64,000 nucleotides of DNA. It comes from Pontiella agarivorans. GTDB lineage: Bacteria > Verrucomicrobiota > Kiritimatiellia > Kiritimatiellales > Pontiellaceae. Shown in pieces: positions 2,439 through 59,348 of this stretch; position 1 is the first letter of the stretch; each line of letters begins with the position of its first letter. The notes under the pieces are model-generated. The model was not told where the DNA came from and did not search any database. It saw only the letters and a list, made by a program, of their open reading frames with translations. Location: NCBI RefSeq assembly GCF_034531395.1, contig NZ_JARVCO010000007.1, positions 62,001-126,000 on the forward strand, read 5' to 3'. A program made the position numbers and the translations under genes.

Positions 2439-2853
2439 CGATTACGGCATAGGATGCCGTCATACGGGCACAGCCGGGAATTTCAGCATCGAGTCGAATG
2501 CGGCTGCGGCCGCGGGTTTCCAATTCCTGGAAAACGCGCGCCGTTTCGGCATCGGTGGTTTCGCAGGCAGCCATGAAATCCCCGGTGACCGGAGCGGTAA
2601 ATTCGGTTTCGGATTTCACGACCATGACCTCCGCCTGAATGCCGGCTTCGTGAAGCGCCCGGGTCATTAATGCCCAGCCGGCGAGCGTGAGGATGGATGA
2701 AATGGAACCGGCAAATCCGGTTCCTTTGTCATTCCGGTTGTTTTCCAGCGGGGCACACAGCTCAATGCCGTTTTTCCACTGTCTGGAAACCGTGATGCCC
2801 ATCATCAGGGCAGGTTCTATATCGGCAAAGAGATTCATGGAAAATGCGGACAC
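2431..2853 (-). CDS. YiiD C-terminal type hot-dog thioesterase-like protein
   Basis: A 140-residue single-domain protein. The segment LENNRNDKGTGFAGS resembles the conserved N-x-N-x-K-G-T-x-F-G-G-S stretch of the YiiD C-terminal/thioesterase-like hot-dog family, and the length suits one hot-dog fold. Members are presumed to act on acyl thioesters, but substrates are mostly unknown. It stands alone on the minus strand, convergent with the EIIA-like gene and just downstream of the carbonic anhydrase gene (25 bases between), so it may be read through from that promoter. Two copies of the dispersed TTCCA-N5-TGGAA palindrome lie inside it (2518 and 2774), read in different frames as FQELE and SRQWK. 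Confidence 0.65.
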   Translation of the reverse strand: MSAFSMNLFADIEPALMMGITVSRQWKNGIELCAPLENNRNDKGTGFAGSISSILTLAGWALMTRALHEAGIQAEVMVVKSETEFTAPVTGDFMAACETTDAETARVFQELETRGRSRIRLDAEIPGCARMTASYAVIAI

Positions 2854-2878
2854 GAAGGGTGCGCCGCGCTTTTATTAA

Positions 2879-3484
2879 CTAACCATCCAGTCCGGTGGCG
2901 GTGACATCCATATCACGGAGCAGACCGTCTTCGAGGCGGTAGATCCAGCCATGAACATGCAGTTGCTGCCCGGATTTCCAGGCATTCTGCACGATGGTGG
3001 TGCTGCAGACATTGCCGACCTGCTCCACAACATTGAGTTCGCACAGACGCTCTTTGCGGGCATGAGGATCTTCGATGGCATCGAGTTCCGCGGCATTAAA
3101 CCGGTAGACATCGCGAATGTGCCGCAGCCAGTTGTCGATCAGGCCGTGGTCGGCATCTTCCAGCGATGCCGCCACGCCGCCGCAGCCATAGTGTCCGCAG
3201 ACAATGATGTGTTTCACCTTCAGCACTTCCACAGCATATTGAATGACCGAGAGGCAGTTGAGATCCGTATGCACCACGACATTGGCAATGTTGCGGTGTA
3301 CAAAAACCTCGCCCGGCGGCAGATCAATGATTTCATTGGCCGGCACCCGGCTGTCCGCACAGCCGATCCAGAGAATATCCGGGGCCTGCATTTTGGAAAG
3401 TTCTTCAAAAAATCCGGGCTGTTCCTTTTCGATTTTTTCCGCCCATTCGCGGTTTTTATTAAAAAGCGGTTTCAGTGTTTTCAT
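2879..3484 (-). CDS. can: Beta-carbonic anhydrase
   Basis: This 201-residue protein interconverts CO2 and bicarbonate in the cytoplasm using zinc. The zinc ligands and catalytic dyad of the beta class are all visible: C42 with D44 and R46 in the motif CADSRV, and H98 and C101 in HYGCGG. HRNIAN is another class signature. Length and motif order match the E. coli Can type. The start is followed by the basic, helical N-terminus usual for the class. A SulP transporter lies in the same 3.5 kb, a pairing that would fit inorganic carbon handling, though the genes are on opposite strands. Confidence 0.95.
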   Translation of the reverse strand: MKTLKPLFNKNREWAEKIEKEQPGFFEELSKMQAPDILWIGCADSRVPANEIIDLPPGEVFVHRNIANVVVHTDLNCLSVIQYAVEVLKVKHIIVCGHYGCGGVAASLEDADHGLIDNWLRHIRDVYRFNAAELDAIEDPHARKERLCELNVVEQVGNVCSTTIVQNAWKSGQQLHVHGWIYRLEDGLLRDMDVTATGLDG

Positions 3485-3522
3485 GCTTATCCTCTCATTT
3501 TAATTCTCATTTTTAACCACTC

Positions 3523-3591
3523 GCTTCGCTGGAGGTCACGGAGTGCGCAGAGGTTTTTCCTCGGTGATACTCCATGCCTCTGTGGTGAATC
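3523..3591. repeat. Dispersed CACGGAG/CACAGAGG-type repeat, degenerate inverted
   Basis: The spacer between carbonic anhydrase and aguB holds GGAGGTCACGGAG, GCGCAGAGG, and then the roughly complementary GCCTCTGTGGTGA. The two arms make a weak inverted repeat. The same sequence type recurs at 43850-43931 next to other genes. It may fold and end transcription, but there is no clear T-run. Confidence 0.5.
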
Positions 3592-4456
3592 AGTCGATAA
3601 AGCGTTTGGTTAAGTCTCCGTAGGCGTCGATGCGGCGGTCGCGGAAAAAAGGCCACATACGCCGGACCGTTTCCGAACGGGTTTTATCCAGCTTCACAAT
3701 CAGTTCCTTTTCCTCATCGATTCCGGCCTGCGCCAGCAGTTCGCCCTGACAGCCCGCGGCAAAGCTCGAACCCCAGAACACCGCGCCGCCGGGTTCGGTG
3801 CCAACCCGATTGACGCTCAGCACCGGAATGCCGTTGGCTACCGCGTGTGACCGCTGAATCGTGATCCACGCCTCGCGCTGGCGCGCCTGCTCTTCGGAAT
3901 CATCAGCCGGATCCCAGCCGATCGCCGTGGGATAAATCAGTACCTCCGCCCCCGCCATGGCCATCAGCCGCGCCGCCTCCGGATACCACTGATCCCAGCA
4001 GACCAAAACGCCCAGCTTTCCGACCGACGTTTCCAAGGGTTGGAAACCGAGATCGCCCGGCGTGAAATAAAATTTTTCATAATAGCCCGGATCATCGGGA
4101 ATATGCATTTTGCGGTATTTGCCCGCAATCGATCCGTCGGCTTCCAATACCACGGCGGTATTGTGATACAGCCCCGGCGCGCGCTTTTCAAAAAGGGACG
4201 TGACGATGACGACACCCAGTTCTTTTGCCAACGCCCCGAAGGTTTCCGTCGACGGGCCGGGAATTGTTTCCGCCAGATCAAAATTTGCCGGATCCTCCAC
4301 ATCGCAGAAATAGAGCGAATTATGCAGCTCCTGCAAAACCACCAATTTTGCACCCCGCTCCGCGCAGCGCCGGATTCCGGCGATACTCTTCTCTATATTT
4401 GCCGCGCGGTCCGCAGTGCATGACTGCTGTACCAAACCTGTGATCAATGTGCTCAT
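3590..4456 (-). CDS. aguB: N-carbamoylputrescine amidohydrolase
   Basis: A carbon-nitrogen hydrolase (nitrilase superfamily) of 288 residues from the chosen start. The Glu-Lys-Cys catalytic triad is visible: Glu in LQELHNS, Lys in KYRKMHIPDD, and Cys in LVCWDQWYPEA. The wording around the triad (LHNSLYF, DDPGYYEKFYF) is that of the AguB subgroup, which turns N-carbamoylputrescine into putrescine. An in-frame start 36 bases upstream would pass through a dispersed repeat, so ATG at 4456 (MSTLITGLVQQSC) is preferred. The partner enzyme aguA lies immediately upstream on the same strand. A palindrome copy at 4031 is read here as FQPLE. Confidence 0.93.
   Translation of the reverse strand: MSTLITGLVQQSCTADRAANIEKSIAGIRRCAERGAKLVVLQELHNSLYFCDVEDPANFDLAETIPGPSTETFGALAKELGVVIVTSLFEKRAPGLYHNTAVVLEADGSIAGKYRKMHIPDDPGYYEKFYFTPGDLGFQPLETSVGKLGVLVCWDQWYPEAARLMAMAGAEVLIYPTAIGWDPADDSEEQARQREAWITIQRSHAVANGIPVLSVNRVGTEPGGAVFWGSSFAAGCQGELLAQAGIDEEKELIVKLDKTRSETVRRMWPFFRDRRIDAYGDLTKRFID
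4031..4045. repeat. Exact copy of TTCCAA-N3-TTGGAA palindrome
   Basis: TTCCAAGGGTTGGAA, flanked by further pairing bases (GT and AC). It lies inside aguB and is read as FQPLE on the minus strand. See the finding on the dispersed palindrome family. Confidence 0.85.
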
Positions 4457-4466
4457 GGCGGTCTTT

Positions 4467-4497
4467 TTAACCACGAAATACACGAAGTACACGAAAC
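4467..4497. repeat. ACGAAATACACGAAGTACACGAAA-type tandem repeat
   Basis: Three near-copies of a TACACGAA-like unit lie in tandem just upstream of the aguB start. The order is ccacgaaa, tacacgaag, tacacgaaa. It is non-coding and is one of three short repeat types in spacers of this window. Confidence 0.55.
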
Positions 4498-4671: not shown

Positions 4672-5610
4672 TCAGGGCATTACGCCTTTGGGGAACTGCA
4701 TGGTGGAGCAGTGGAGGGAGCCGCCCTGGCGGATGAGCACGGAGCAGTCGATGCCGATGATTTCGCGGTCGGGGAAGGCTTTTCCGATGGTTTCGAGGGC
4801 GAGGGCGTCGGCGGGATCGTTGTAGGTGGGGACGAGGACGGCGCCGTTGATGACGAGGTAGTTGGCGTAGGTGGCGGGCAGGCGTCGGCCGTCGTCGAAT
4901 TTCGGTTTGGGCCAGGGGAGGGGAAGAAGGCGGTAATCCTGAAATTGCCGGATCTCTTTTTCCAATGATTGGAAAATTTCGTAGTGCTCGTCGGCGGGAT
5001 CGTTACACGACACATAGAGGATGGTTTTGTTTGGTGCGAGGCGGGCGAGGGTGTCGATGTGGGCGTCGGTGTCGTCGCCGGCGAGGTGGCCGTTTTCGAG
5101 CCATAGGATGTTGGAGGGGCCGAAGAGGTCGGTCAGTTTTTCCTCGATCTGTTTTTTGGAGAGATTGGAATTCCGGTTTTTATTGAGCAGGCAGGCTGCG
5201 GTGGTGAGCAGGGTGCCCTGGCCGTCGGATTCGATGCTGCCGCCTTCGAGTATGAGGTCGATTTCCCGTATTTCCGTTTTTCCAAAGGTACCGCGTTTGT
5301 GGAGGCGTTTGGAAAGGGCGTTGTCCAGATCGTGGGGAAATTTGCCGCCCCAGCCGTTGAAGGTGAAATCGAGCAGGACGGGTTTTTCGTTTTCTTCGAT
5401 GGTGATGGGGGCGATGTCGCGGCTCCAGGTGTCGTTCGTTTCCAGATCTTCGACGATGATGACGGGCTGGAAGCGTTCGATGGTTTTCCGGATAATGGAA
5501 AAGGTGGCGCGTGCGTCGTCGAGGCAGTAGGCCCAGTCCATATTTTTCTGAGGCCAAATCAGCAGGACGGCGTCCTGCGGTTCCCATTCGGCTGGCAGTC
5601 TTCTTTTCAT
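4672..5610 (-). CDS. aguA: Agmatine deiminase
   Basis: A 312-residue protein of the Porphyromonas-type peptidyl-arginine deiminase/agmatine deiminase family. It converts agmatine to N-carbamoylputrescine and ammonia. The catalytic Cys is C301 in the C-terminal motif GGSLHCSTMQFP. The His-containing motif GDDTDAHIDT and the Asp-containing NDTWSRDIAP are also in place. It lies upstream of aguB, so the two genes together take agmatine to putrescine, even though about 215 bases separate them and aguB may have its own promoter. A palindrome copy at 4960 is read as FQSLE. The upstream spacer carries two more copies. Confidence 0.94.
   Translation of the reverse strand: MKRRLPAEWEPQDAVLLIWPQKNMDWAYCLDDARATFSIIRKTIERFQPVIIVEDLETNDTWSRDIAPITIEENEKPVLLDFTFNGWGGKFPHDLDNALSKRLHKRGTFGKTEIREIDLILEGGSIESDGQGTLLTTAACLLNKNRNSNLSKKQIEEKLTDLFGPSNILWLENGHLAGDDTDAHIDTLARLAPNKTILYVSCNDPADEHYEIFQSLEKEIRQFQDYRLLPLPWPKPKFDDGRRLPATYANYLVINGAVLVPTYNDPADALALETIGKAFPDREIIGIDCSVLIRQGGSLHCSTMQFPKGVMP
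4960..4974. repeat. Exact copy of TTCCAA-N3-TTGGAA palindrome
   Basis: TTCCAATGATTGGAA with T/A flanks that lengthen the palindrome. It lies inside aguA and is read as FQSLE on the minus strand. Confidence 0.85.
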
Positions 5611-5656
5611 GGGGCAGGAGCATTTCCAAGGTTTGGTAAAAACGCGAGCGGAAAAG

Positions 5657-5671
5657 TTCCAATCCTTGGAA
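5657..5671. repeat. Exact copy of TTCCAA-N3-TTGGAA palindrome (intergenic)
   Basis: TTCCAATCCTTGGAA in the spacer upstream of aguA, not coding. A degenerate copy (TTCCAAGGTTTGGTA, 5624-5638) lies 33 bases away, between this one and the aguA start. Confidence 0.85.
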
Positions 5672-10945: not shown

Positions 10946-11821
10946 ATGGCGATTTTAGTAGATAAAGATTCAAAGATCATTGTGCAGGGCATTACCGGAT
11001 CGGAAGGTTCGTTCCATGCAGGGCAATGTCTTGAATACGGCGGCAATGTGGTGGGCGGTGTCACGCCGGGCAAAGGCGGTCAGACCGCGCTGGACGGACA
11101 GGTTCCGGTCTTCAACAGCTGTCTGGAAGCCCGAAAGGAAACCGGCGCAAACGTCTCCCTTATTTTCGTGCCCCCACCGTTCGCAGCCGATGCAATTATG
11201 GAAGCGGCTTCCGCCGGAATTGAGCTTATTGTCTGTATTACGGAGGGAATTCCGGTGGCGCAGATGGTTGAAGTGAAGGCTTTTGTGGAAACAACGGAAT
11301 CCCGTTTTATCGGGCCGAACTGTCCGGGCATTCTGACCCCCGAAGGTGCCAAAGTGGGTATTATGCCCGGTTTCATTGCAAAGAAAGGAACCGTGGGCGT
11401 GATCTCAAAATCCGGAACGTTGACCTATGAGGCGGTGGACCAGCTGGTGCAGCAGGGCCTCGGCCAGTCGACCTGTATCGGTATCGGCGGCGATCCAATC
11501 ATTGGAACCACGATGAAGGACCTGCTTGAAATGTTTGAAAACGATCCTGAAACCGAGGCGATTGTGATGATCGGTGAAATCGGGGGATCGATGGAAATTG
11601 AAGCGGCGCAGTATGCAAAGGATAACGTCACGAAGCCGATCGTTGGCTTCATTGCGGGTCAGACTGCACCACCCGGTCGGCGCATGGGCCATGCCGGAGC
11701 CATTGTGTCCGGCGCGGATGAGTCTGCAGCCGCCAAGAAAAAGCTGATGGCTGAGTGCGGAATCAATGTGGCGGAATCGCCCGCTGATATCGGTCGTATG
11801 GTGAAGCAGGTACTGAACTAA
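10946..11821 (+). CDS. sucD: Succinyl-CoA synthetase alpha subunit
   Basis: A 291-residue protein with an N-terminal CoA-binding Rossmann domain ([18 protein letters not shown]) and a C-terminal ligase domain. The active-site His that is phosphorylated during catalysis lies in [21 protein letters not shown] and [10 protein letters not shown] are further family motifs. It forms the catalytic complex with SucC. It lies 37 bases after sucC and 25 bases before the preferred gltA start, in the same transcription run. No departures from the family are seen. Confidence 0.96.
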
Positions 11822-13958: not shown

Positions 13959-14399
13959 ATGTTCCATCCAGTAAAAAGAAACAGCAATGTTGTATACGCG
14001 GATCCGTTTGCGCATATCTTCGAATCCTTTTTCGGAGATTCCGCACGTTACAGTCCGGCGGAAACCAAATTGAATCCGCAGTTCGAAATTACAGAAACGG
14101 ACGATGCCTTTTCCGTGGCGGCTGAACTTCCAGGCCTTGGAAAAGAGCAGATTGAAATTGTGCTGGAAAACGATGTTCTGACGGTGAAGGGCGAAAAGAA
14201 AGCCGAGGAGCAGAAGGAGGATCGGAACTGTCTTTACAGCACTCGCCAGTACGGTTCTTTTGAACGCAAATTCCAGCTTCCGGATTCAGTGGATCAGGCG
14301 GAGGTTAAAGCGCATTATGAAAATGGCTTGCTGATGTTGAATCTGCCGAAAAAACCGGAGGCGGTGAAACCCGCACCGCGGCAAATTGAAGTGAAGTAA
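13959..14399 (+). CDS. Small heat-shock protein, Hsp20/alpha-crystallin family
   Basis: A 146-residue ATP-independent holdase chaperone. The alpha-crystallin domain covers about residues 37-135, with the beta-strand pattern FEITETDDAFSVAAELPGL and the C-terminal GLLMLNLPKK, which corresponds to the conserved G-x-L motif. The proline-rich tail KPAPRQIEVK takes the place of the usual I-x-I/V anchor. AGGAGGTGTGTC ahead of the ATG is a near-perfect ribosome site. The 289 bases upstream hold no gene and presumably contain the heat-shock promoter, but no CIRCE or sigma-32 box is clear. A terminator follows. A palindrome copy at 14128 is read as LPGLGK. Confidence 0.92.
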   Translation: MFHPVKRNSNVVYADPFAHIFESFFGDSARYSPAETKLNPQFEITETDDAFSVAAELPGLGKEQIEIVLENDVLTVKGEKKAEEQKEDRNCLYSTRQYGSFERKFQLPDSVDQAEVKAHYENGLLMLNLPKKPEAVKPAPRQIEVK

Positions 14400-20482: not shown

Positions 20483-21250
20483 GGCCAGAGTCTGTGCCGC
20501 GCGGGCGGGAATCCAGCAGGTCTGGCCGTCGGCCAGTTCAATATGCCACCAGTTTTCACGTTGTTCCAGACGCTGGAACTCTGTGCCTGAATGAAGGGGA
20601 TCCAGAAAAGCCGGTGCATACATGGGGCCGTCGCCCTTGCGCGCAACGACTTCTGCGGCAGTGATCACGCCGGGCTGGGTTTGCAGGTTCATGATACCTT
20701 CGGTAATCAGAGAAATCAGCAATACGGCAGAAACCAGTGCACAGGTTACGGTTGTGATCCGGGCTTCTTTCCGTGGAGTGCGCTTCATCCAGAACCACGT
20801 TCCCCAGAAACCGATCCAGAGGATGGAAAACAGCCCCCAGCGGAAACGAGGCGAGGTGTTTAAATGCCAGCCCAGCAGTCGGGCCGCCACAGGAGAGGGT
20901 TCTTTTTCCGGAATCAGATCCGGTCGGAGCTCCAGTGCCGCGGACAGATTGTGCTGCAGGTCGGCATCGTTCGGCATATAGCGCTCGGCGCGCCGGTAAT
21001 TCAGAATCGTGCGGCCCATATTCCCGGCCATAAACCAGGCATTCCCCGCTGTATAAAAAAGATGCCCGTTGCGGATGCCTTCTTCTTGAATGAGCATTTC
21101 ATAGCGTTCGGCCGCCTCTGCATAGCCGGCGGCATTGGTTGCTGTTCTGAAAGAGGCATGAGCATCCTCCAGCGCCTGTAAACGGTAGTCTTTTCCAAAG
21201 GCTGGAAAAATCCATGCGGCAAGTATGATCAGGAGAAGATGTTTTTTCAT
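20474..21250 (-). CDS. batE: BatE-like TPR and SH3-type protein of the Bat operon
   Basis: A 258-residue protein with a signal peptide (to about residue 19), a TPR-type helical region (about 20-105), two hydrophobic segments near 140-160 and 170-190, and a C-terminal SH3-like domain (about 195-255) containing TEFQRLEQRENWWHIEL and GQTCWIPA. This is the layout of BatE in Bacteroides-type aerotolerance operons. It is the last gene of the minus-strand operon and overlaps batD by 4 bases. The function of BatE is not known in detail; it is presumed to act in the periplasm with the VWA proteins. Palindrome copies lie at 20564 and 21193. Confidence 0.8.
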   Translation of the reverse strand: MKKHLLLIILAAWIFPAFGKDYRLQALEDAHASFRTATNAAGYAEAAERYEMLIQEEGIRNGHLFYTAGNAWFMAGNMGRTILNYRRAERYMPNDADLQHNLSAALELRPDLIPEKEPSPVAARLLGWHLNTSPRFRWGLFSILWIGFWGTWFWMKRTPRKEARITTVTCALVSAVLLISLITEGIMNLQTQPGVITAAEVVARKGDGPMYAPAFLDPLHSGTEFQRLEQRENWWHIELADGQTCWIPARAAQTLALP

Positions 21251-23058
21251 TTCAGTTTCCTCTCAACAGTACGGACGATTCGGGTGGCCTCACGCACAAT
21301 TTTGGCAGCGTTGCCTGTTTCGTTATAATCCCGGGTAAAGCGGTAGGCTTCGCAGAGTGCAAAGAGATGCTTCAGTTCCTCCAAGGTCTTGTCATCGGCA
21401 CCGACGTCCAGCAGGCGGGCTTCGGCATCCCGGTAGGAAAGTGCACCGGGGACGAGATGTAGGCGGTCGCCAAAATAAGCACGCAGACACCGGTCGAGAT
21501 CGCCATAGATTTCCGCCTTCATGGAATGTGTTTTAATGTGCGCCACGTTCCGGCGGAATACGTTGAATGCCCGGGCAGCTTTTGCTGTGCGATGAATGTG
21601 ATGTTTTTTCTCGCCGAAGAGTGAGGCCAGCGAAACTCCTCCAAACACGGCAGGCGGTAACAGCAGGATCAGCAGTACAAGGGCGGGGTGCGCCCATCCG
21701 AACAGGGGCAGCTGTCGCGATTTCAGCATGTCCGGATCTTCATAGTTCTGGCGAATTCCTTCTTCCACAGAGCGCAAACGGTTTTGATAGAACGAGCCTC
21801 CGAATACGCCGATTTCTTCTGCGGCGGACACCTGCAACGGAATGGGAGCGGATTCCCGGATGATATACTTTTGCTGCGTTGGACTGAAGTAGGCCAGTTG
21901 TATTGGGGGTATTTCGGTATTGCTGAGGGAAAGCGGCCGGATTGTCTGTGTGTAGACTTTGGATTTACCTTTGCGTTCCGGCAGCGAACGGTCGGCGGGA
22001 ATTTCAAACCGGTTGACCAGATTGGGTTGGTAGCGCAATGGTTCAAAGAAAATATTTTCCAGATAATTGGAAGCCGTTACGGTGATCGTCAGGGTAATCG
22101 GTTCTCCGACACGGACTGAGGTAGGTTCGGCTGCAACCTCAATATCAAATTCGCCGACCATGCCATTGAACAGATCGGGGCGACCCGCTTGCGGAAGCGG
22201 TTTAACGTCGATTTCAATCGGTTTGGATTCAGTATATATCCGCGTCCATTGATCTCCGGTTGCATTGCGATCGAAGAAGGTGTTGTCGAAATAGGCGGGA
22301 TATTGAAACGCCGTGCGGCGGGCTCTTTTAGCGGAGGTTTTATCTTCGGCCTCCGCCGCGCATAGCAGAGTGGCGGGCGCAACGGCAATACGGCCGCTTT
22401 TTTTCGGGATCAGGATTTTGCTGAATTCCAGGCTTTGGTGCTGTGTGCCGTCGACCTGATAACTCCGCCGCGTGGCCAATACGCGTGTGCCGTGCACCGG
22501 CAGACCGGTCGTGTTGGCCTGGTTTTCTTTGCCCGGATCATAGATTTCGAGGATCTGGAACCGGGGATCGTTGAGAATCGGGAAGTGAAAATCGACGGCC
22601 TTGATGGCGCCGAACGGGTAAGTGCTGTCCCATTGCGTTGTCAGCAGGAGCGGTTCACCCACATAAACGGAAGCCGCAGAAACATTTTGTTCGAGTTTCA
22701 TCCGGTCCGACGCTGCGGGTTTGCTGGCCTTGATCTGGATCGGTTTGGAATAGACGCTGCCGAAGTGCAATGAAGGCACAATAAGTTCGCCCTCCTGTTT
22801 CGGACGCAGGGCATAGCGATACAACCAGGTATTCTCCCCGCTGGTATCCTGTCCATTCACCAGCATCGTGGTATGGAATTCCGGAGATTGGAACGCCGGA
22901 GCGTCGGGTTTTTTTTCGGCCTTTACCAGCACATCAAGATTGAATACCTGCCCGAGGAACACATTGGTTTCCGATGCGGTGGCCTGTGCATAAAAATTGG
23001 TAGAGGCCGAAGCCGACCCCGCAACGATTAAACCTGTCAATAGGATAAGCTTTTTCAT
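21247..23058 (-). CDS. batD: BatD-like oxygen tolerance protein
   Basis: A 603-residue envelope protein with a signal peptide (MKKLILLTGLIVAGSASAS), a large periplasmic region built of repeated beta-rich modules (for example VFLGQVFNLDVLVKAEKKPD, SVYVGEPLLLTTQWDS, SVRVGEPITLTITVTASN), one hydrophobic segment near residue 470 and a cytoplasmic helical tail. This is the BatD layout. ATG at 23058 opens the signal peptide; the frame extends upstream through a basic nonsense-like stretch that is a shadow of batC. It lies 1 base after the batC stop and overlaps batE by 4 bases, so it is tightly coupled. Confidence 0.85.
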   Translation of the reverse strand: MKKLILLTGLIVAGSASASTNFYAQATASETNVFLGQVFNLDVLVKAEKKPDAPAFQSPEFHTTMLVNGQDTSGENTWLYRYALRPKQEGELIVPSLHFGSVYSKPIQIKASKPAASDRMKLEQNVSAASVYVGEPLLLTTQWDSTYPFGAIKAVDFHFPILNDPRFQILEIYDPGKENQANTTGLPVHGTRVLATRRSYQVDGTQHQSLEFSKILIPKKSGRIAVAPATLLCAAEAEDKTSAKRARRTAFQYPAYFDNTFFDRNATGDQWTRIYTESKPIEIDVKPLPQAGRPDLFNGMVGEFDIEVAAEPTSVRVGEPITLTITVTASNYLENIFFEPLRYQPNLVNRFEIPADRSLPERKGKSKVYTQTIRPLSLSNTEIPPIQLAYFSPTQQKYIIRESAPIPLQVSAAEEIGVFGGSFYQNRLRSVEEGIRQNYEDPDMLKSRQLPLFGWAHPALVLLILLLPPAVFGGVSLASLFGEKKHHIHRTAKAARAFNVFRRNVAHIKTHSMKAEIYGDLDRCLRAYFGDRLHLVPGALSYRDAEARLLDVGADDKTLEELKHLFALCEAYRFTRDYNETGNAAKIVREATRIVRTVERKLK

Positions 23059-42735: not shown

Positions 42736-43836
42736 TTATACCGTGGTGGGCCGATCGGCCACCCACTTGCGCATCTCTTCCTTGGTCTCTTTCCATTGCT
42801 TGGAATCGTTACGCTCTTTAGCAAATTCGCTGTAAAGGTGGAAGAAACTCTGCCGGAAGGTTTCCAGGAAGACCATGCGTTCCTGGAATTTTCCAACGCG
42901 GTCAAAGGTTTCGGTTTCCGGAAGTTTCAGGCTGCGGAACACAAAGTCATCCGCATCGAATGTGAATGCCCAGACCTCTTCACCGCGAACAAACTGCATT
43001 TTGGCCTTTTTCAGTTTTTTCCCGCTCAGCAACGCGGTTCGTGCTTCCGCGGAAAGCATCGGTTCCCCTTTACGCAGCGTGATTTCGTGCGCACCTTTAC
43101 CTTCCATCACAAAGGTCAGCGGGCCTTCCACCATATAGGCCATTTCTCCAACATCGGGAATCTGTGCAATGCCCTGACGCTTTTCGGAGCAGAACCAGAG
43201 CCACATCAGAAATTCGCGGCCGGCGGTTCCGTCGACCATGCCGTCCTCCAGTTCGTCGGAAAAACTGGACGGAGCCCAGCCCTGCACATCCACCTGGGCC
43301 ACGCGCTCGCCGATCGTTTCCGGATCAGCCGGTGTTGCACCGCAGCCCGTCGTCTGCATCAGGGTCAGCACAAAGGCATCGACCTGTTTTTCCGAGGTGG
43401 CGGTGGAATAAATCATGTGGGAGCGTTCATCGAACACAAAATCGATCCCCTTCAGCTGTACCGGCATTTCGGGCAGCAGCCGTTCCTGAATTGATTTTTT
43501 GATTTCCGACCGCTGCGTCTGGTTCAGATAATTTTTATCCTCGGCCTCCATCACCGCCATTTCCTCCAGCGCACATTCGGCCTGCAGCAGCGACGTGGGA
43601 ACTTTTTTCCTGGCCTGGGTCAGCGAAAGACGCAGGTAGCCGCCCAGAAACGCATTCTCTTCCGTGATATTGCGGTCCAGCAGATGACGTCCACCCACCC
43701 AGCCGTGCACTTCCTCCTCCGCCAGCGTACTGAGCGGCGGCAGTGCAGCCGCCGCAAATTTATCGATATCTTCGGTGGTCAGATCGCGCGATGCGAAATA
43801 CATACGGAAACTGATGGAACCTTTTTCAAAACCCAT
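42736..43836 (-). CDS. RdgC-like protein (putative recombination-associated)
   Basis: A 366-residue soluble protein. The region around residues 45-175 has the order of elements of RdgC: GWVGGRHLLD, a predicted helical stretch rich in Glu and Lys, KKSIQERLLPEMPV, and then VFDERSHMIYSTATSEKQVDAFVLTL, matching the RdgC core that forms a DNA-encircling ring. The protein is longer than E. coli RdgC (about 300 residues), and the C-terminal third is less similar. The assignment is by pattern only. A dispersed repeat with a long inverted repeat lies just upstream. A palindrome near-copy at 42791 is read as SKQWK. Confidence 0.5.
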   Translation of the reverse strand: MGFEKGSISFRMYFASRDLTTEDIDKFAAAALPPLSTLAEEEVHGWVGGRHLLDRNITEENAFLGGYLRLSLTQARKKVPTSLLQAECALEEMAVMEAEDKNYLNQTQRSEIKKSIQERLLPEMPVQLKGIDFVFDERSHMIYSTATSEKQVDAFVLTLMQTTGCGATPADPETIGERVAQVDVQGWAPSSFSDELEDGMVDGTAGREFLMWLWFCSEKRQGIAQIPDVGEMAYMVEGPLTFVMEGKGAHEITLRKGEPMLSAEARTALLSGKKLKKAKMQFVRGEEVWAFTFDADDFVFRSLKLPETETFDRVGKFQERMVFLETFRQSFFHLYSEFAKERNDSKQWKETKEEMRKWVADRPTTV

Positions 43837-43935: not shown

Positions 43936-45627
43936 TTACCAGTTCACAGAAAGTCCGGTGAAAACTGTGGTCGGGCGCGATTTCAGGCCGGGAATGGACT
44001 GGAAGTTCGAGCCCCACAGATTATCCACCAGAAACGAAAGGCGGGCATTCTGGGCAAAGGACGGAGAGTAATGCAAGCCCAGCGTCGCCAAAGCCCCGAA
44101 ATCATCGCCGGTGCGCACCGAATTTTCTGTTTGCAACCGCGTGGTCTGCGAAAACTGTACGGAAAACTGCTCCAGAAAATGCCAATAAGCTGAAAGGTTG
44201 AGCAGGTGTTCCGGATAGTCTGTTTCATACAATCCGTCTTCAATTTTATTATCTTTATAGACCCATTGATAATACACCGAGAGCCGGAGCTGTTCATTCG
44301 GATAATAGCTGAATGCGGCATCCAGACCCGAAATATTCAGCCGTCCCAGATCCGTTGCCGTACCGCCGATCCAGTCGCTGGCATTTTCCAGTGTCCGGAA
44401 AAACGCACCGATTTTCCAGTCACTGTTTTCCGACAAATACTGCTTAAAGCCCAGTTCTGTATTTTTCGAATGCTGCTGTTCCAGCAACGGATTATTTTCC
44501 AGCGTCTGGAAATCGGGCTGCTGTTCGGTTTCTGTATATGAAAGTGAAACCACGCCGTTATCCGTCAGAAACCAGTCGATTCCGGCTATGGGCAGAAAAT
44601 CCGTACTTTCCGCCGTCTGGAAAACGGAATTCACGCCCGCTTTCACCGTAAACCGCTCAAACCGTGCTTCCGGCAAAAAAAGCAATGATCCGCGGGTGCG
44701 GTCGTCGTCCGGAATACTGCCGCTGACCCGCTCATATTCGAGGTCGCCCCGAACGTAGAGCGCAAGATGCTGAATCTCCATGGTCCGGCCTTCGGCAGCC
44801 GCCGCAAAATTGCGCGAGAAGATATCGGTATAATCCGGTGTGGATACATCCAGTACCTGATCGCGCATATCCCGGTAAAACGCCGAAATCCGCACGAAAG
44901 CATCATCCGTATCCCCCCGTGTTGCGCCGGCATAAAGCAGGGTGTCGTCAAGCAGGTGCGAAACGTCGTTGGTTTGTCCGTAATAACCGTAAGCCCCGTA
45001 ATCCTTCGATTGTCCGGCCGCAATGAGGTCGATATTCCATTCCTCCGTCGCAATCCGGAAAACCGCCCCGCCGGCCGAACGCTCCAGATCATTTTCCGGG
45101 GAATCAATCCGCCGCGCCTTTTCCCAGTCAAAATATCCGCCGACATTTTCCGACGAAGCATAGATCCCGCCGGCATAATGCTCTTTTGTGCCGAGGCCGG
45201 CATAGACCTGCCGGGCATCGCCGAGCGGACGGGTGCTGAAATCCGCCGTGCCGACCAGATGGCCGGACGCATTGTCGATTCCGGTTCCAACGGTTGGAAC
45301 TGACAGCAGATTTCCAAGGATTGGAAACTCCGCATTCCAGTGGGCGGAATAGGGCGATTTCAGCCGCAGTCCGTTAATACTCAGGCCCGAGCCTGTATAA
45401 CTGCCGCCCCGGATCGATAAATTCCGCTGCGCCAGCCCCTGTGCATTCACCAGCACTTCCGGCTCGGTATCCAGTACCTGCCACGCCTGCCGCGTATTGA
45501 CACCATCCTGAGCCAGAACGGAAACGGCCGATGCGGAAACAATACTCATGAAAAACGCGATGCGTTTCAGCCGTCTGTTCCGGTCAGAACGATGCAGCAC
45601 CGCAGAATGAAAAAAGTGAGGGCTCAT
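43936..45627 (-). CDS. TonB-dependent receptor-like outer-membrane protein, coupled to bioD
   Basis: A 563-residue protein with a basic lead and signal peptide (to about residue 40), a short plug domain (QGLAQRNLSIRGGSYTGSGLSINGLRLKSP is plug-like, in parts) and a beta-barrel with alternating residues ending in TGLSVNW, whose last residue is aromatic. It is short for a TonB-dependent receptor, and a TonB box is not clear. The start codon shares ATGA with the bioD stop, so translation is coupled. Uptake of biotin or a precursor is the natural guess. Five palindrome copies lie inside, two of them exact and 12 bases apart. Confidence 0.8.
   Translation of the reverse strand: MSPHFFHSAVLHRSDRNRRLKRIAFFMSIVSASAVSVLAQDGVNTRQAWQVLDTEPEVLVNAQGLAQRNLSIRGGSYTGSGLSINGLRLKSPYSAHWNAEFPILGNLLSVPTVGTGIDNASGHLVGTADFSTRPLGDARQVYAGLGTKEHYAGGIYASSENVGGYFDWEKARRIDSPENDLERSAGGAVFRIATEEWNIDLIAAGQSKDYGAYGYYGQTNDVSHLLDDTLLYAGATRGDTDDAFVRISAFYRDMRDQVLDVSTPDYTDIFSRNFAAAAEGRTMEIQHLALYVRGDLEYERVSGSIPDDDRTRGSLLFLPEARFERFTVKAGVNSVFQTAESTDFLPIAGIDWFLTDNGVVSLSYTETEQQPDFQTLENNPLLEQQHSKNTELGFKQYLSENSDWKIGAFFRTLENASDWIGGTATDLGRLNISGLDAAFSYYPNEQLRLSVYYQWVYKDNKIEDGLYETDYPEHLLNLSAYWHFLEQFSVQFSQTTRLQTENSVRTGDDFGALATLGLHYSPSFAQNARLSFLVDNLWGSNFQSIPGLKSRPTTVFTGLSVNW
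45285..45299. repeat. Exact copy of TTCCAA-N3-TTGGAA palindrome
   Basis: TTCCAACGGTTGGAA with G/C flanks that extend it. It lies inside the TonB receptor gene and is read as VPTVGT on the minus strand. Another exact copy starts 12 bases downstream. Confidence 0.85.
45312..45326. repeat. Exact copy of TTCCAA-N3-TTGGAA palindrome
   Basis: TTCCAAGGATTGGAA with T/A flanks. It lies inside the TonB receptor gene and is read as FPILGN on the minus strand. It pairs with the copy at 45285. Confidence 0.85.
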
Positions 45628-48369: not shown

Positions 48370-49134
48370 TTATTTTGTGAGCAGGAAGGCGGCGGTTTCA
48401 TAGGTGGCATAAACTCCACCGTCGGAGGCGAACTCCTCCTGATAATCGACCACCAGCCGGCTCAGTTCTCCGCGCGTCAGCGGGGCATTGCCGGAACTGA
48501 CTTTTCCACCGGTTACACCTTGCTCGTGAATGGCGCGAAGAAAGGCTTTGGCATCGCCGTAAAGGATTTTTTCCTCGGCATGCTGCCGGCGTTTGAGTCT
48601 GAATCCGGCGGATTTTAATGCCTCCAGTATTTCAGAATAGGTCGGCAGCGTAATTCCGGGAGTCTTTTCCGGGGAAATTTCACGGCGCAGTTGATGCAGT
48701 TCTTTCAGGGTGCCCTGCAGCATCATCCCCAATGAAAAGATACCGCCGGGTTCCAGGCTTTGGAAAACATTTTCGAAGGTTGCGGACAGGTCCGCCGCCC
48801 AGTGCAGCGCAGCGCTCGATGCAATCAGCGGATAGCGGCGGCCGTTCCAGAAGGTCTGGGCATCGCCGACCATCCAGTTGATCTGCGGGTAGGCCGCAAA
48901 TGTTTTACGACTGTGCGCGATCATCATTTCGGCCACGTCTACGGCATCGATCGGCACGTTCGGAAACCGCTCAAGCAGCAGGCGCGTCAGCTGACCGGTG
49001 CCCGGGCCGAGCTCAAGAATCTCTTCCGGAGCGGTTTTCGGAAGCATGGAAACGACCGCCTTCGCCAGGGCCAGCTGAGGCTGGGCGTGGCGGTCGTAGG
49101 TTTCTGCTGCAGCTGAAAAACGCGATCCAATCAT
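48370..49134 (-). CDS. bioC: Malonyl-ACP O-methyltransferase BioC-like
   Basis: A 254-residue SAM-dependent methyltransferase. Motif I is LELGPGTGQLTRLLLERFP, preceded by RFSAAAETYDRHAQPQ, which matches the BioC start (F-x-x-x-A-x-x-Y-x-x-x-A). BioC masks malonyl-ACP as a methyl ester so that fatty-acid enzymes can build pimeloyl-ACP. ATG at 49134 follows GGAAAAGTAACACC; a longer frame upstream is non-coding DNA shared with the divergent mscS promoter. A BioH-like esterase that would remove the methyl group lies 7.6 kb away. A palindrome copy at 48751 is read as FQSLE. Confidence 0.85.
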   Translation of the reverse strand: MIGSRFSAAAETYDRHAQPQLALAKAVVSMLPKTAPEEILELGPGTGQLTRLLLERFPNVPIDAVDVAEMMIAHSRKTFAAYPQINWMVGDAQTFWNGRRYPLIASSAALHWAADLSATFENVFQSLEPGGIFSLGMMLQGTLKELHQLRREISPEKTPGITLPTYSEILEALKSAGFRLKRRQHAEEKILYGDAKAFLRAIHEQGVTGGKVSSGNAPLTRGELSRLVVDYQEEFASDGGVYATYETAAFLLTK

Positions 49135-50158: not shown

Positions 50159-51465
50159 ACACGTCTATTTCACAAACGGCCGAAACCGGCCATCCATCAC
50201 CCCTGCGGTATGCGGGCTGCGATTCAACGACGGCGATCCGGTACCGGTCCGACGTCGATGCGGTCCGCGTTTTTCCGTGCAAGACCGAAACACATGATGA
50301 TGCCGAAACGGTATTCGAACGGGCCGGACCGCGTGCGCAGCTTATCGGAGAGCCGGAAAAAATGACGGCGGCTATTCTGACCTGCGGCGGGCTGTGTCCC
50401 GGGTTGAATGATGTGCTTCGCGGTCTGGTGATGAGTCTGAGTCATCACTACGGGGTTCCGCGCATTCTCGGTATTCGTTACGGGTATGCGGGACTGACCG
50501 ACGGGGGGCTTTCTCCCTGGGAACTGACGCCGGATTCGGTGGATGAGATTCACCGTGACGGCGGAACGATGCTGGGGACCAGCCGCGGGGCACAGAATGT
50601 AGGTGAAATGGCCGACTGGATTCTGAAACAGGGAATTACGCAGCTGTATATCATCGGCGGTGATGGAACCCAGCGCGGTGCCCTTGAACTGAGTCAGGAG
50701 CTGGCGCGCCGTGCCCGGCCGGTCAACGTGATCGGTATTCCGAAGACCGTTGATAATGACATTATGTGGGTGGATCAGTCGTTCGGATACGACACGGCGG
50801 TGGAAATTGCCGCACGCGTGATCTCGGATGCACATGTTGAAGCGCGTTCCACGGAGCGCGGCGTGGGGATTGTGAAGGTGATGGGGCGCGATAGTGGATT
50901 TATTGCCGCCGGTGCGGCCATTGCCTCGCAGGAAGCCAATGTGGTGCTGGTGCCGGAAGTGGAGTTTGATTTTGACGGACCGAACGGGCTGCTGACCTAT
51001 CTTGAAAAGCGGCTGGAGCGAAAAGATCATGTTGTCATTGTTGTTGCAGAGGGGGCCGGACAGCGGCACTTCAAACAGCAGGGCCGGGAGGTTAAGGATG
51101 CCAGCGGAAATGTGCTGCACCGCGATATCGGGGAGCTTCTGTGTGAACGGATTCACCGGCATTTCCAGACCTTGGAAAAGCCGGTGAAGCTGAAATACCT
51201 CGACCCCGGCTATTCGGTGCGTTCGGCCCCGGCATGCGCTACGGACCGGATTTACTGTACACGGCTGGCGCATGCGGCGGTGCATGCGGCCATGGCGGGC
51301 CGGACGGCGATGATGGTCAGCCGCTGGAGCGGGCACTATGTGCATGTGCCGCTCGAACTGGTGACGAAGGGGCGGCGCAGAATCGACCCGACCGGCAGTC
51401 TCTGGCGTACGGTGCTGGAGGCTACAGGCCAGCCCTGCCTGAACCATGGTGAGGGAAGATGCTGA
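50155..51465 (+). CDS. Phosphofructokinase (group III/plant-type, ATP-dependent by motif)
   Basis: A 436-residue PFK. GGLCPGLNDVLRGLV is the ATP-site glycine loop, GGDGTQRGA holds Gly where the PPi-dependent form has Asp (GGDDT), and PKTVDNDI is the sugar-phosphate motif with a Lys typical of this branch. So it is likely ATP-dependent, but plant-type enzymes can be misread and a pyrophosphate role is not excluded. It phosphorylates fructose-6-phosphate in glycolysis. ATG at 50155 is chosen because CAGGAGCACAG precedes it and it overlaps the mscS stop. The N-terminal 60 residues are a lead of unknown function. A palindrome copy at 51163 is read as FQTLE. Confidence 0.85.
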   Translation: MNTSISQTAETGHPSPLRYAGCDSTTAIRYRSDVDAVRVFPCKTETHDDAETVFERAGPRAQLIGEPEKMTAAILTCGGLCPGLNDVLRGLVMSLSHHYGVPRILGIRYGYAGLTDGGLSPWELTPDSVDEIHRDGGTMLGTSRGAQNVGEMADWILKQGITQLYIIGGDGTQRGALELSQELARRARPVNVIGIPKTVDNDIMWVDQSFGYDTAVEIAARVISDAHVEARSTERGVGIVKVMGRDSGFIAAGAAIASQEANVVLVPEVEFDFDGPNGLLTYLEKRLERKDHVVIVVAEGAGQRHFKQQGREVKDASGNVLHRDIGELLCERIHRHFQTLEKPVKLKYLDPGYSVRSAPACATDRIYCTRLAHAAVHAAMAGRTAMMVSRWSGHYVHVPLELVTKGRRRIDPTGSLWRTVLEATGQPCLNHGEGRC

Positions 51466-56671: not shown

Positions 56672-56740
56672 AGGATATCCTTTTAGGTCATTGGCCTGAA
56701 TAGGCGATATCCGCTGAGCAATCGAGTTTTTAATCGCGGA

Positions 56741-57385
56741 TTACGGCAAAAGAAATTCCCGAATACCGGTCATCATATCCTGAAAATGATGCGCCGCCAG
56801 ACCGTGGCCGTCTTCATAGACCGTTAAATCGCTGTTCGGCAGATGATCCGCCAGCCACTGCGCGGCCCCCGGCGGAATGATCCGGTCCTGTGATCCATGG
56901 AAAAGCTGTACCGGAATTCCAAGGGTTGGAACTTTTTCCCGCACATCCGATTTCTGTAGATATTCCAGTCCGGCGACCAGGTCTTCAAGCGGTTCGTTCA
57001 CACCTTCGAAGGTGTGAAATTCATAGGGATGGTGCACATTTCTGAAGAACTCGCTCAGTACGGCTTCCGGCTTACGTTTCAGCTGCACAATCATCCGCTT
57101 CAGAATTTTTTCGTGCGTACCGCAGGGATAATCTTCCGCCGCGCAGAATTTGGCCGTGGAAGAAATGAGGACCAGTTTTTTACAGGTTTCCGGCAACAGC
57201 TCCATAGCCAGCAGTCCGCCCATCGAACCCGTCACAATAACGTCCGTATCCGGAATTTTGCGGTTTTTCAAAACCTGCGTTCCCGTCATCAGCTCAACTT
57301 CAAACTGATCGCGCAGCGCATTGCCGATCGGCCGGATGGCATCCAGCCCGTGGGCCCAACCTGAAATGACGATAACGGTTTTCAT
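56741..57385 (-). CDS. BioH/BioG-like alpha/beta hydrolase (putative pimeloyl-ACP methyl ester esterase)
   Basis: A 214-residue esterase. Ser lies in VTGSMGGLLAM (G-x-S-x-G), Asp in HGSQDRIIPPG and His in YEDGHGLAAHH, and GWAHG takes the place of the oxyanion motif HGWG. Length is shorter than BioH but suits BioG/BioV-like enzymes. bioF lies directly upstream on the same strand, and bioC is 7.6 kb away, so removal of the pimeloyl-ACP methyl group is the likely task. An exact palindrome copy at 56917 is read as VPTLGI. Confidence 0.7.
   Translation of the reverse strand: MKTVIVISGWAHGLDAIRPIGNALRDQFEVELMTGTQVLKNRKIPDTDVIVTGSMGGLLAMELLPETCKKLVLISSTAKFCAAEDYPCGTHEKILKRMIVQLKRKPEAVLSEFFRNVHHPYEFHTFEGVNEPLEDLVAGLEYLQKSDVREKVPTLGIPVQLFHGSQDRIIPPGAAQWLADHLPNSDLTVYEDGHGLAAHHFQDMMTGIREFLLP
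56917..56931. repeat. Exact copy of TTCCAA-N3-TTGGAA palindrome
   Basis: TTCCAAGGGTTGGAA inside the BioH-like gene, read as VPTLGI on the minus strand. Its core is identical to the copy at 4031, where the same bases are read as FQPLE. Confidence 0.85.
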
Positions 57386-57387
57386 AT

Positions 57388-57516
57388 GCTTAGACAGGAT
57401 TAACGGATTCTAAAAAACCATATCCCAGTTTCTTATGCACCTTGAAAGCACATCCGATAATCTGCTCTGTGAGTTTTTCAGATTCCATCCTGTAGATCCT
57501 GTTAATCCAGTCAGAA
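57388..57516. repeat. Dispersed GATTAACAGGAT-type repeat between bioF and the BioH-like gene
   Basis: The spacer carries GACAGGATTAACGGATTC at one end and GATCCTGTTAATCCAGTC at the other. These are inverted relative to each other and belong to one repeat type. It is a third kind of short spacer repeat in the window and could fold across its 130 bases. Confidence 0.5.
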
Positions 57517-58704
57517 TTAGCCCTTGATGGTTTTTATGATGGCTTTGGCGGCGCGTTCGAGGTCGTCGACCAGGTGCGCCAGGGTAATTGAAATCCGCAG
57601 CCGCGCGGTGCCCGTCGGAACGGTGGGGGGCCGGATGGCGGCGCAGATGATATTTTCCTCGCGCAGCTTTTGCGAAACAGCGAGTGCTTTTTCGTTATCG
57701 CCGATGATCACCGGAATAATCTGGCTTCGGCTGTCGAGCGTGTCCAGTCCGGCGTCGTGCAATAGCGACCGGAAATAGTCGGCATTCGCCTGCAGAATAT
57801 TTCCAAGCCTTGGAGAAGCTTCAAATACTTCGAGGGCTCCGAGCGCCGCGCCGATGACCGCCGGCGGCGGGGCGGTGGTATAGATAAAGGCGCGGGAGGA
57901 ATGAACCAGCAGTTTCCGAAGGTTGGAAGAGCAGGCCACGTAGCCGCCGAAACCGGCCATGGCTTTGCTCATGGTGCCCATGGAAACCGTGACGGCGTTT
58001 TCAAGGCCCAGCTCCCGAACCAGTCCGGCGCCGTTGGGACCGAACGTGCCGGTGCTGTGGGCTTCGTCGATCATCAGCATCGCCCCGTGTTTTTCCGCCA
58101 GCGCGGCGATCTCTTTCAGCGGCGCGATATCGCCATCCATGCTGAAAACGGATTCCGTGATAATGAGTTTCCGACCCTTGGAACTTTCATATTGTTCCAG
58201 TCGTTTTTCCAGAGCCTGGACCTCGTTATGGGTCCAGCGGACAAGTTTGGCGCCGGAGAGTTTACAGGCGTCGATCATTGAGGCGTGTACGAGTTTGTCT
58301 GCAAAAATCAGGTCGTCGCGACCGGCGAGAACGGGAATAGTGCCGGCGTTGGCCATGTAGCCGGAGCCGAAGACGAGGGCGGATTCATAGCCTTTTTCTT
58401 TGGCGAGCCGGTTTTCAAGTTCTTCGTGAATGGGCAGCGTGCCCGAAACCAGCCGCGAAGCGGTGGTCCCGCTTCCGAATTCGTCGAGGGCCTGACGGGC
58501 GCGGTCGGTAACATGCGGGTGGCGGGCGAGGTCGAGATAGTCGTTGCTCGAAAAATTGAGCATTTCTGTTCCGTCAATGCGGATGAGTCCCCCGGCCTGA
58601 GGGAAAACGCGGGCGCGGCGTTCGAGTCCCTGTTTCGCGAAAATGTCGAGTTGCTGTTGAATCCATGTGTCGTCCATCGGGTCACTTTGTCCAAGTTGTT
58701 TCAT
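57517..58704 (-). CDS. bioF: 8-amino-7-oxononanoate synthase
   Basis: A 395-residue PLP enzyme that condenses pimeloyl-ACP or pimeloyl-CoA with alanine, the first committed step of biotin ring building. The PLP lysine is K247 in GTMSKAMAGFGGY; DEAHSTGTFGPNGAG and FSSNDYLDLARHP are family motifs. The start at 58704 is kept because AAGG lies nine bases ahead; an in-frame ATG at 58677 is possible. Three palindrome copies (57801, 57914, 58169) plus a weaker one (58207) fall inside in 420 bases. Related 2-oxoamine synthases (KBL) remain an alternative on motif grounds, but the bio neighbours favour BioF. Confidence 0.9.
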   Translation of the reverse strand: MKQLGQSDPMDDTWIQQQLDIFAKQGLERRARVFPQAGGLIRIDGTEMLNFSSNDYLDLARHPHVTDRARQALDEFGSGTTASRLVSGTLPIHEELENRLAKEKGYESALVFGSGYMANAGTIPVLAGRDDLIFADKLVHASMIDACKLSGAKLVRWTHNEVQALEKRLEQYESSKGRKLIITESVFSMDGDIAPLKEIAALAEKHGAMLMIDEAHSTGTFGPNGAGLVRELGLENAVTVSMGTMSKAMAGFGGYVACSSNLRKLLVHSSRAFIYTTAPPPAVIGAALGALEVFEASPRLGNILQANADYFRSLLHDAGLDTLDSRSQIIPVIIGDNEKALAVSQKLREENIICAAIRPPTVPTGTARLRISITLAHLVDDLERAAKAIIKTIKG

Positions 58705-58739
58705 TGGCGCAACCTTGAAAATGCAATATAGGTTGCGTC

Positions 58740-59348
58740 ATGAAAATCGTTCCCGCTCTGATTCCGTATCTGGCTGTGCTGCTGGGGATGCATGTGCTCA
58801 GCAGCGCATGGGCGGCTATGCTGTTTTATCACGCCGGTATGCTGTTATTTCTGTGTATAAGAAAATCTTCCGGAGATTGGAAAAAGATCGGCCGGGGCTG
58901 TTCGCCCCTGCTGATTCCGGCGATGATCGTATGTGCGCTGGCCGCGCCGGTGGTTTATTTTATGTGGCCGTTTTTACGGATATCGGAACATGCGCTGGTG
59001 GAATGGATGGCGGAATACGGTCTTACCGGAGCTGCGTGGATGCTGCTGATCCCCTGGTTTTCGGTCGTACATCCGATGCTGGAAGAGCTTCACTGGCGGG
59101 GTATCGGACCGGAAGGGGCGGAGAGGCTGTGCTGGCAGGATTTTGCTTTTGCGGGATATCATGTATTCGTGTTGTATGAGCTGGTTTACTGGCCTTGGCT
59201 GTTTATGGTGTTCGGTATATTGGTCGGGAGCTCGTTTTTCTGGCGCTGGGCGGCGGAGCGGTTCGGCGGATATCTGTTGCCGGTGTTGACGCATGCGGTG
59301 GCGGATGCCGGGGTTCTAATGGGCGTTTGGTTATTGATAAGGAGATGA
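58740..59348 (+). CDS. CPBP family intramembrane protease-like protein
   Basis: A 202-residue membrane protein with about five hydrophobic segments. The sequence EELHWRG matches the E-E-x-x-x-R motif of the CPBP (CAAX prenyl protease/bacteriocin-processing) family; additional His lie in FAGYHVFVLYEL and LLPVLTHAVADA, as expected for the metal site. Family members cleave membrane proteins or confer bacteriocin immunity, but the substrate here is not known. It is divergent from bioF (35 bases), and the atypical SDR follows it after 2 bases, so they may be co-expressed. A palindrome copy at 58868 is read as SGDWK. Confidence 0.75.
   Translation: MKIVPALIPYLAVLLGMHVLSSAWAAMLFYHAGMLLFLCIRKSSGDWKKIGRGCSPLLIPAMIVCALAAPVVYFMWPFLRISEHALVEWMAEYGLTGAAWMLLIPWFSVVHPMLEELHWRGIGPEGAERLCWQDFAFAGYHVFVLYELVYWPWLFMVFGILVGSSFFWRWAAERFGGYLLPVLTHAVADAGVLMGVWLLIRR

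Follow-up and report, generated by a model that had tools for sequence, protein, structure and literature searches.

HIP1, the highly iterated palindrome of cyanobacteria, poses a question that is old and still open: why do some genomes carry such repeated palindromes? It is a short sequence, hugely over-represented and lost in some lineages (PMC4390886). DNA uptake sequences (DUS) and uptake signal sequences (USS) are likewise dispersed, the former in thousands of copies in Neisseriaceae (PMC3630211), and in Lrp/AsnC-type clusters the palindromic sites share one helix face at intervals of two or three turns (PMC2995911). Repetitive extragenic palindromic sequences (REPs) and bacterial interspersed mosaic elements (BIMEs) form intergenic palindrome arrays. 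Noc, SlmA and MatP are sequence-specific nucleoid proteins that bind, as dimers, palindromes spread on the chromosome, with tens of sites. Here we analyse a dispersed palindrome, TTCCAA-N3-TTGGAA (15 bp, 12 fixed core bases), in a 64,000-nucleotide stretch of Pontiella agarivorans NLcol2 (contig NZ_JARVCO010000007.1, positions 62,001 to 126,000; hereafter the window) and in related genomes. Pontiella is placed in the class Kiritimatiellae, phylum Verrucomicrobiota (PMC7356697). We think it probable that a sequence-specific DNA-binding protein, acting as a homodimer, recognises the palindrome and is used across the chromosome in many Kiritimatiellia.

Abundance and form of the palindrome

The exact site, TTCCAANNNTTGGAA, occurs 334 times in the 4,436,865 bp (12 contigs) of the P. 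agarivorans genome (G000), against once for the reversed pattern that served as genome-wide control; with up to one mismatch allowed, the counts are 1,217 and 7. The window holds 40 sites with at most two mismatches, where 4.2 are expected. All six exact copies of a preliminary description of the window were recovered (dinucleotide-shuffle mean 0.02). Its 26 near copies proved to be a mixture of 12 with one mismatch, 10 with two and 4 with three (16339, 44386, 44608 and 58207), and the list was incomplete, as it lacked 4 of the 16 one-mismatch copies (11493, 24114, 26308 and 26809).

Codon usage was controlled for in a 464-kb sample (the window plus 400 kb) by synonymous-codon shuffling of its 420 kb of predicted coding sequence (CDS), the gene caller's predictions being also the basis of gene positions and frames throughout. 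Twenty-eight of the 36 exact sites in this sample lie inside CDS, against 0.8 in 10 shuffles and 1.5 in 20 further ones, and they are read in all three frames (8, 14 and 6), as had been proposed. One-mismatch coding copies number 76 against 10.1 in the 10 shuffles, and two-mismatch copies 85 against 53.4, so that well over half of the latter are expected by chance, which agrees with the earlier caution about weaker copies. The palindrome is thus, in the manner of HIP1, dispersed far above both compositional and codon expectation; the original observation is confirmed, and is larger than first noted.

The way in which copies deviate defines the motif further. Coding copies with one mismatch most often carry A6>G (42 against 2.75), A5>G (13 against 1.05) or A6>T (7 against 0.1), and changes inside TTCC or GGAA are few, 9 in total. 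The refined motif TTCC-RR-NSN-YY-GGAA is found 117 times against 12.2 expected, and the same motif with A or T at its centre 11 times against 2.4. TTCC-N7-GGAA reaches 177 against 32.4, and ten other spacings of the half-sites (N2-N6 and N8-N12) stay at 1.0-1.9 times expectation. A second sample comprises 80 array loci (587 kb) selected for the presence of three sites 29-34 bp apart; every one of its 361 exact sites has C or G as the middle base. The TTCC and GGAA half-sites are nearly fixed, with centres 11 bp apart, about one helical turn. Such half-sites, on a dyad with a central S, have the geometry that a helix-turn-helix dimer would read, each dimer contacting both half-sites in successive major grooves.

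Methylation at CCA-N5-TGG, which the preliminary description saw in the sites and offered as one idea, is rejected as the driver. This core is present in the exact copies and lacking at 9 of the 32 listed positions (16339, 18561, 22879, 29369, 44386, 44608, 57914, 58169 and 58868). Without the outer TT..AA it shows no enrichment (134 against 140.5; the only inner core tried), and so it is not the unit. The same count bears on a HIP-like origin, by which the palindrome would arise from methylation-linked repair with a cognate methyltransferase, as proposed for HIP1. An iterated palindrome lost in some lineages does recall HIP1 (PMC4390886), and for the genic mode the label HIP1-like is fair. 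We nevertheless regard this origin as very improbable: besides the missing enrichment of the core, near-match variation falls mainly at the inner A positions, whereas deviations from HIP1 favour the first and last base (PMC4390886), and repair would not set the helical spacing described below.

Arrays, helical spacing and surroundings

Between neighbouring sites with at most one mismatch in the 80 array loci, the distance is 31 bp in 149 cases, 32 bp in 71, 30 bp in 23, 22 bp in 26 and 20-21 bp in 5, with few others; since the loci were chosen for three sites 29-34 bp apart, the 31-bp peak comes partly from that selection. Spacing is typical of the genome, namely 32 bp in CAIVKH, 31 bp in RZZM, SKLK and JAQVYB, and 22, 30 or 31 bp in JAFXQI, and apart from JAFXQI the array spacers are mostly unrelated in the genomes shown. 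Fourteen other genomes, in stretches mostly chosen for their exact sites, gave neighbour distances of 22 or 30-32 bp, the rest being 16, 62, 63 and 94 bp. An unselected sample comes from G032, a single contig of 3.88 Mb taken as 20 stretches at even steps: for its 24 pairs within 200 bp, 10.5 bp is the best of the periods from 6 to 20 (R=0.84, p=5e-8), and with the RR..YY motif the same stretches give 13 pairs (R=0.80, p=5e-5). G005 has 28 pairs, nine at 22 bp and four at 42 bp (p=0.003; 25 pairs and p=0.0008 after removal of a mirrored copy), and G017 reaches p=0.024 on the first 13 of its 105 pairs; pair totals are 118 in G001, 61 in G009 and 76 in G032. In the P. agarivorans genome, 34 TTCCARNNNYTGGAA pairs lie 20-50 bp apart, with about 7 expected at random, and 15 of the 34 are at 30-32 bp, a range taken from the other genomes (p=2e-7).

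Palindromes two to three helical turns apart on one face are thus found as in Lrp/AsnC-type clusters, the local Pontiella samples excepted. Because of this spacing, a chromosome-wide protein-binding site fits best among the ideas first listed, which as a whole are partly supported. Whole-turn spacing would bring neighbouring dimers to the same face of the helix, where they could touch and bind cooperatively; the resulting filaments, bridges or wraps would organise or mark the chromosome, a nucleoid-protein role with Lrp-like geometry. Lineages that lose the protein would then lose the sites by ordinary decay. We infer an organising role for the sites on these grounds.

The surroundings of the arrays bear on a regulatory role. 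In the 80 loci, 99 of the 105 sites or clusters fall between genes (54 tandem, 17 divergent, 8 convergent and 20 edge); for the first three classes the same loci have 120, 41 and 31 gaps of at least 100 bp. Genes adjoining clusters of two or more sites face them with their 3' end 131 times and with their 5' end 127 times, and no neighbour gene family recurs in more than three genomes among the array loci. The palindrome is therefore not a promoter or terminator element. Palindromes and helical spacing are typical of operators, so that ordinary transcription-factor operators of a large regulon might also be considered, Lrp being an instance (PMC2995911). The balance of 5' and 3' ends, the 8 of 99 arrays between convergent genes, the lack of a recurrent target family and the 28 of 36 exact sites inside genes all speak against such a regulon, which we find quite improbable.

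A 329-aa multi-copy gene beside one rumen array was considered as a partner of the arrays and rejected, 11 of the 14 distinct places with a match of at least 318 aa having no site within 600 bp in the sequence analysed. Its family (L065:7289-8275, minus strand) has no Pfam match and is present in two rumen Kiritimatiellia genomes as many copies that have diverged to about 67-82% DNA identity; a few copies adjoin palindrome arrays and most of those examined do not. A search for RNA families in five array loci returned one cobalamin riboswitch (L088:3894-4101, in a locus that also has a six-site array) and nothing else. The arrays do not resemble clustered regularly interspaced short palindromic repeats (CRISPR): the repeats are of 15 bp, the spacers mostly of 7 or 15-17 bp, copies run to hundreds per genome and no neighbour family recurs, cas genes not having been searched by name.

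Some arrays have an internal symmetry. Two mirrored site clusters lie about 5 kb apart near a contig end in G005 (G005:C4:1166344-1166464 and 1171395-1171514), and symmetric four-site units (22-40/42-22 bp) occur at G005:C5:190956-191054 and G005:C1:2180272-2180372, the latter with a GC-rich inverted repeat in its middle gap. A supposed site-free region in G005 was dropped, as sites were found inside it. Along the chromosome, no clear gradient of sites was seen by eye across the 20 stretches of G032.

Distribution, conservation and change of the sites

Among 387 genomes of the phylum, 131 belong to the same class. Of these, 33 carry 50 or more exact copies, another 3 carry 10-49 and the remaining 95 at most 7; the maximum in the other 256 is 5. 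Exact counts range from 0 to 1,177 over 28 genomes of varying completeness within the genus, and G001 (96% complete, 1,177 copies) and G004 (94% complete, 3 copies) are members of one genus. Further counts are 82 in G025, 376 in G022, 4 in G019, 1,339 in G048 and 3,044 in the 6.7 Mb of G417, the metagenome-assembled genome (MAG) AM-2014_bin-1020. In a collection of 84,980 species the three-site array pattern matched at least 108 stretches; 80 titles among the matches listed name Kiritimatiellae (also Kiritimatiellia and Kiritimatiellaeota), Lentisphaerae, Verrucomicrobia, Spartobacteria, bacteria and one Bacteroidales MAG. The latter has five sites, all on one contig, with a rumen-type array at L148:661-781 and a flank 97% identical to L155 (record CACXEY), and this contig is probably misbinned. 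Three IMG/VR viral contigs (L080-L083) carry palindrome pairs, one 18.9-kb IMG/VR record has seven exact sites, which is denser than most genomes counted, and the predicted proteins of two IMG/VR contigs look, by inspection without a family search, like tailed-phage structural genes.

We aligned the P. agarivorans sites with at most one mismatch to nine relatives (G025, G001, G009, G017, G006, G022, G005, G019 and G004), which gave 4-9 sites per relative for the comparison of the 12-base core with its flanks (21 in G025), many of them the same sites. Core and flank divergence are 0.074 and 0.224 in G017 (9 sites), 0.074 and 0.229 in G001 (9), and 0.095 and 0.217 in G009 (7), and these are the relatives with the highest exact counts among the nine (640-1,177). 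In these three the sites are kept against substitution, and in the six others they are not. The centre triplets vary as the arms stay, for instance at 45312 and 56917. The excess over codon shuffles, the use of three frames, and cores 7-10% diverged against flanks at 22-23% in the three site-densest relatives bear out the suggestion of selection or spread at the DNA level. The sites are not kept in G005 (0.357 and 0.235, 7 sites), G006 (0.306 and 0.254, 6), G004 (0.375 and 0.221, 4) or G019 (0.317 and 0.254, 5), where part of the core excess is expected because the sites were chosen in the P. agarivorans genome. Over the window the sister G025 is largely collinear, at 84% identity, and has 0.179 and 0.156 (21 sites), a pattern as in neutral decay and in line with its 82 exact copies against 334.

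Sites come and go mainly by substitution, as 74 of the 82 alignments are gapless within the 15 bp. The eight gapped ones are spread over G025 (1 of 21), G006 (2 of 6), G022 (2 of 9), G005 (1 of 7), G019 (1 of 6) and G004 (1 of 4), with none in G001 (11 alignments), G009 (9) or G017 (9). Site-sized insertions, another of the original ideas, are therefore not supported in the genes of Pontiella; in a looser protein comparison with all the loci sampled, 20 of 65 alignments were gapped where the site lies, and distant homologues account for many of the 20. Gain or loss of a site is not generally accompanied by a burst of substitutions like that at 4031, the 15 non-shared sites having a mean divergence of 0.21 in the core and 0.18 in the flank.

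This mode of change is also what a DNA uptake signal would show, that is, a sequence preferred by a competence receptor and both spread and kept by transformation bias. Many dispersed copies, genic ones included, are maintained in three of the nine relatives, and the single genic copies in three frames, the 3,044 copies of G417, and the fewer sites with near-neutral decay in a sister are all DUS-like. DUS are oriented, whereas our site is a perfect palindrome, and neither helical phasing nor a genome-typical array spacing is expected of an uptake signal. An uptake role is a possible explanation, and the main rival, for the genic mode; for the palindrome as a whole we think it rather unlikely.

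Arrays can also change by units, since one orthologous array in two rumen genomes differs by exactly 31 bp, with seven sites against six; in the four other near-locus pairs compared, the alignment breaks down at or beside the array. Together with the recurring layout and some shared spacer pieces of the arrays in the rumen genome JAFXQI, this recalls a mobile or selfish palindromic repeat of REP or miniature inverted-repeat transposable element (MITE) type, moved by a transposase such as a REP-associated tyrosine transposase (RAYT). Over 61 genomes there is indeed a weak correlation between the numbers of sites and of Y1 transposases (Spearman 0.31, p=0.015, uncorrected for phylogeny), with medians of 6 in 37 site-rich and 3 in 24 site-poor genomes. 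The exceptions are strong: 3 of the 37 site-rich genomes have no Y1_Tnp match, G048 has 2 to its 1,339 sites, and 14 are present in each of G113 (site-free) and G054 (site-poor); a RAYT is probably not the determinant. The spacers of the other genomes shown are mostly unrelated, the genic copies of Pontiella change mostly without insertions or deletions, and, unlike GTAG-tagged REPs (PMC3733652), the palindrome has no fixed flanking tag; it is a symmetric site of 15-17 bp and not an asymmetric unit of 20-40 bp. A mobile repeat is thus, to our mind, unlikely.

Table 1. Palindrome sites in the window, with their state in related genomes.
Positions	Site	Remarks
2518..2532	1-mismatch palindrome TTCCAATTCCTGGAA, in CDS	
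4031..4045	exact TTCCAAGGGTTGGAA, aguB-like CDS	absent in sister G025: 6/12 core bases differ, flanks 5/120
4960..4974	exact TTCCAATGATTGGAA, aguA-like CDS	
5624..5638	1-mismatch palindrome	33 bp before 5657; exact in G025
5657..5671	exact TTCCAATCCTTGGAA	outside predicted CDS
11493..11507	1-mismatch palindrome, not in earlier list	
14128..14142	refined motif TTCCAGGCCTTGGAA	
16339..16353	refined motif, 3 mismatches to exact palindrome	outside predicted CDS
20564..20578	refined motif, 2 mismatches	
21193..21207	refined motif, 1 mismatch	
22879..22893	refined motif, 2 mismatches	
24114..24128	1-mismatch palindrome, not in earlier list	29 bp before 2-mismatch copy 24143; 9 bases absent in G025
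26308..26322	1-mismatch palindrome, not in earlier list	exact in G025
26402..26416	refined motif, 1 mismatch	
26809..26823	refined motif, 1 mismatch, not in earlier list	
26875..26889	refined motif, 1 mismatch	G001 orthologue also 1 mismatch
29369..29383	refined motif, 2 mismatches	
42791..42805	1-mismatch palindrome	1 mismatch also in G025, G001, G009
44386..44400	refined motif, 3 mismatches	
44497..44511	refined motif, 2 mismatches	
45285..45299	exact, first of pair 27 bp apart	exact in G025, G017; 1 mismatch in G009; 2 in G001
45312..45326	exact, second of pair	exact in G025, G017, G009, G001; centre triplet differs in last three
48751..48765	refined motif, 1 mismatch	1 mismatch in G001, G009, G022
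51163..51177	refined motif, 1 mismatch	
56917..56931	exact	exact in G017, G009, G006, G022; 1 mismatch in G001; 3-4 in G025, G005, G019
57801..57815	1-mismatch palindrome	
57914..57928	refined motif, 1 mismatch	same state in G017; 5 mismatches in G025
58169..58183	refined motif, 1 mismatch	1 mismatch in G017, G001, G009; 5 in G025
58868..58882	refined motif, 2 mismatches	
60719..60733	refined motif, 2 mismatches, not in earlier list	

Candidate binders and comparison with known systems

The geometry of the arrays made Lrp/AsnC a candidate determinant, which was rejected as its presence does not track the sites: of the genomes compared, 35 of the 36 rich in sites and 21 of the 24 poor in them have PF01037 (AsnC) matches (56 of 60 overall, one or two each), and the AsnC proteins of G000 (334 sites) and G019 (4 sites) are alike. 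A conserved AsnC/Lrp-like protein of 160 aa is encoded at L229:1312-1791, with relatives in L225-L234. The presence of Lrp/AsnC genes does not explain the sites, and that of RAYT genes probably does not either.

Several points weigh against a homodimeric binding protein as the reader of the palindrome. No such protein was found, the families compared with site number being AsnC and Y1_Tnp. The Pontiella sites are mostly single and genic, which would also fit an uptake signal. The 34 pairs of P. agarivorans give only R=0.36 (p=0.013) in a Rayleigh test at 10.5 bp, and the pairs at 27-28 bp, 4 of the 34 and among them the window's own, are out of phase. There is no phasing in the 464-kb sample (R=0.08 for the 11 pairs at 16-100 bp, p=0.2 for the 14 pairs up to 200 bp) or in 471 kb of other Pontiella. 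Finally, G022 has 376 exact sites and shows no conservation at the P. agarivorans ones (0.292 in the core and 0.217 in the flanks, 8 sites), and does not fit a simple rule of site-rich and site-poor relatives.

With these reservations a binding protein is still the explanation we favour. More tentatively, and with less confidence than we place in the binding site itself, one might speculate that Kiritimatiellia possess a chromosome-organising or self-marking system with hundreds to thousands of sequence-specific sites, placed at whole turns in an array geometry specific to the lineage, kept through coding sequence, present on some phage contigs and lost whole within single genera. Since related genomes exist with and without sites (1,177 in G001, 3 in G004), the binder should be findable by comparison of gene content and by pull-down, and finding it would bring to light, in a phylum that has been little studied, a protein system spanning the chromosome. 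A literature search returned no publication describing the palindrome among the matches listed, subscription journals lying mostly outside its coverage.

Compared with REPs and BIMEs, the arrays have no GTAG tag, no asymmetric unit that we could see and no evident requirement for a RAYT, and their spacing is fixed by the helix with mostly unrelated spacers. Lrp/AsnC clusters share the placement on one helix face, but here there are hundreds to thousands of near-perfect sites, no link to promoters was seen, and AsnC occurs in site-rich and site-poor genomes alike. The nearest known kinds are HIP1, uptake sequences and the sites of sequence-specific nucleoid proteins. In contrast to HIP1, the Kiritimatiellia site is 15 bp long, with fixed ends around an inner stretch of 7 bp, forms phased arrays in several families, lacks an enriched CCA-N5-TGG core and varies at its inner bases, where HIP1 varies at its outer ones. 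It differs from DUS and USS in being palindromic and in its helically phased arrays in several lineages, and from the sites of Noc, SlmA and MatP in its sequence, its arrays and its far greater numbers. The palindrome may represent a new kind of chromosome-wide system, and its helical phasing offers a structural clue to why some genomes carry such sequences.

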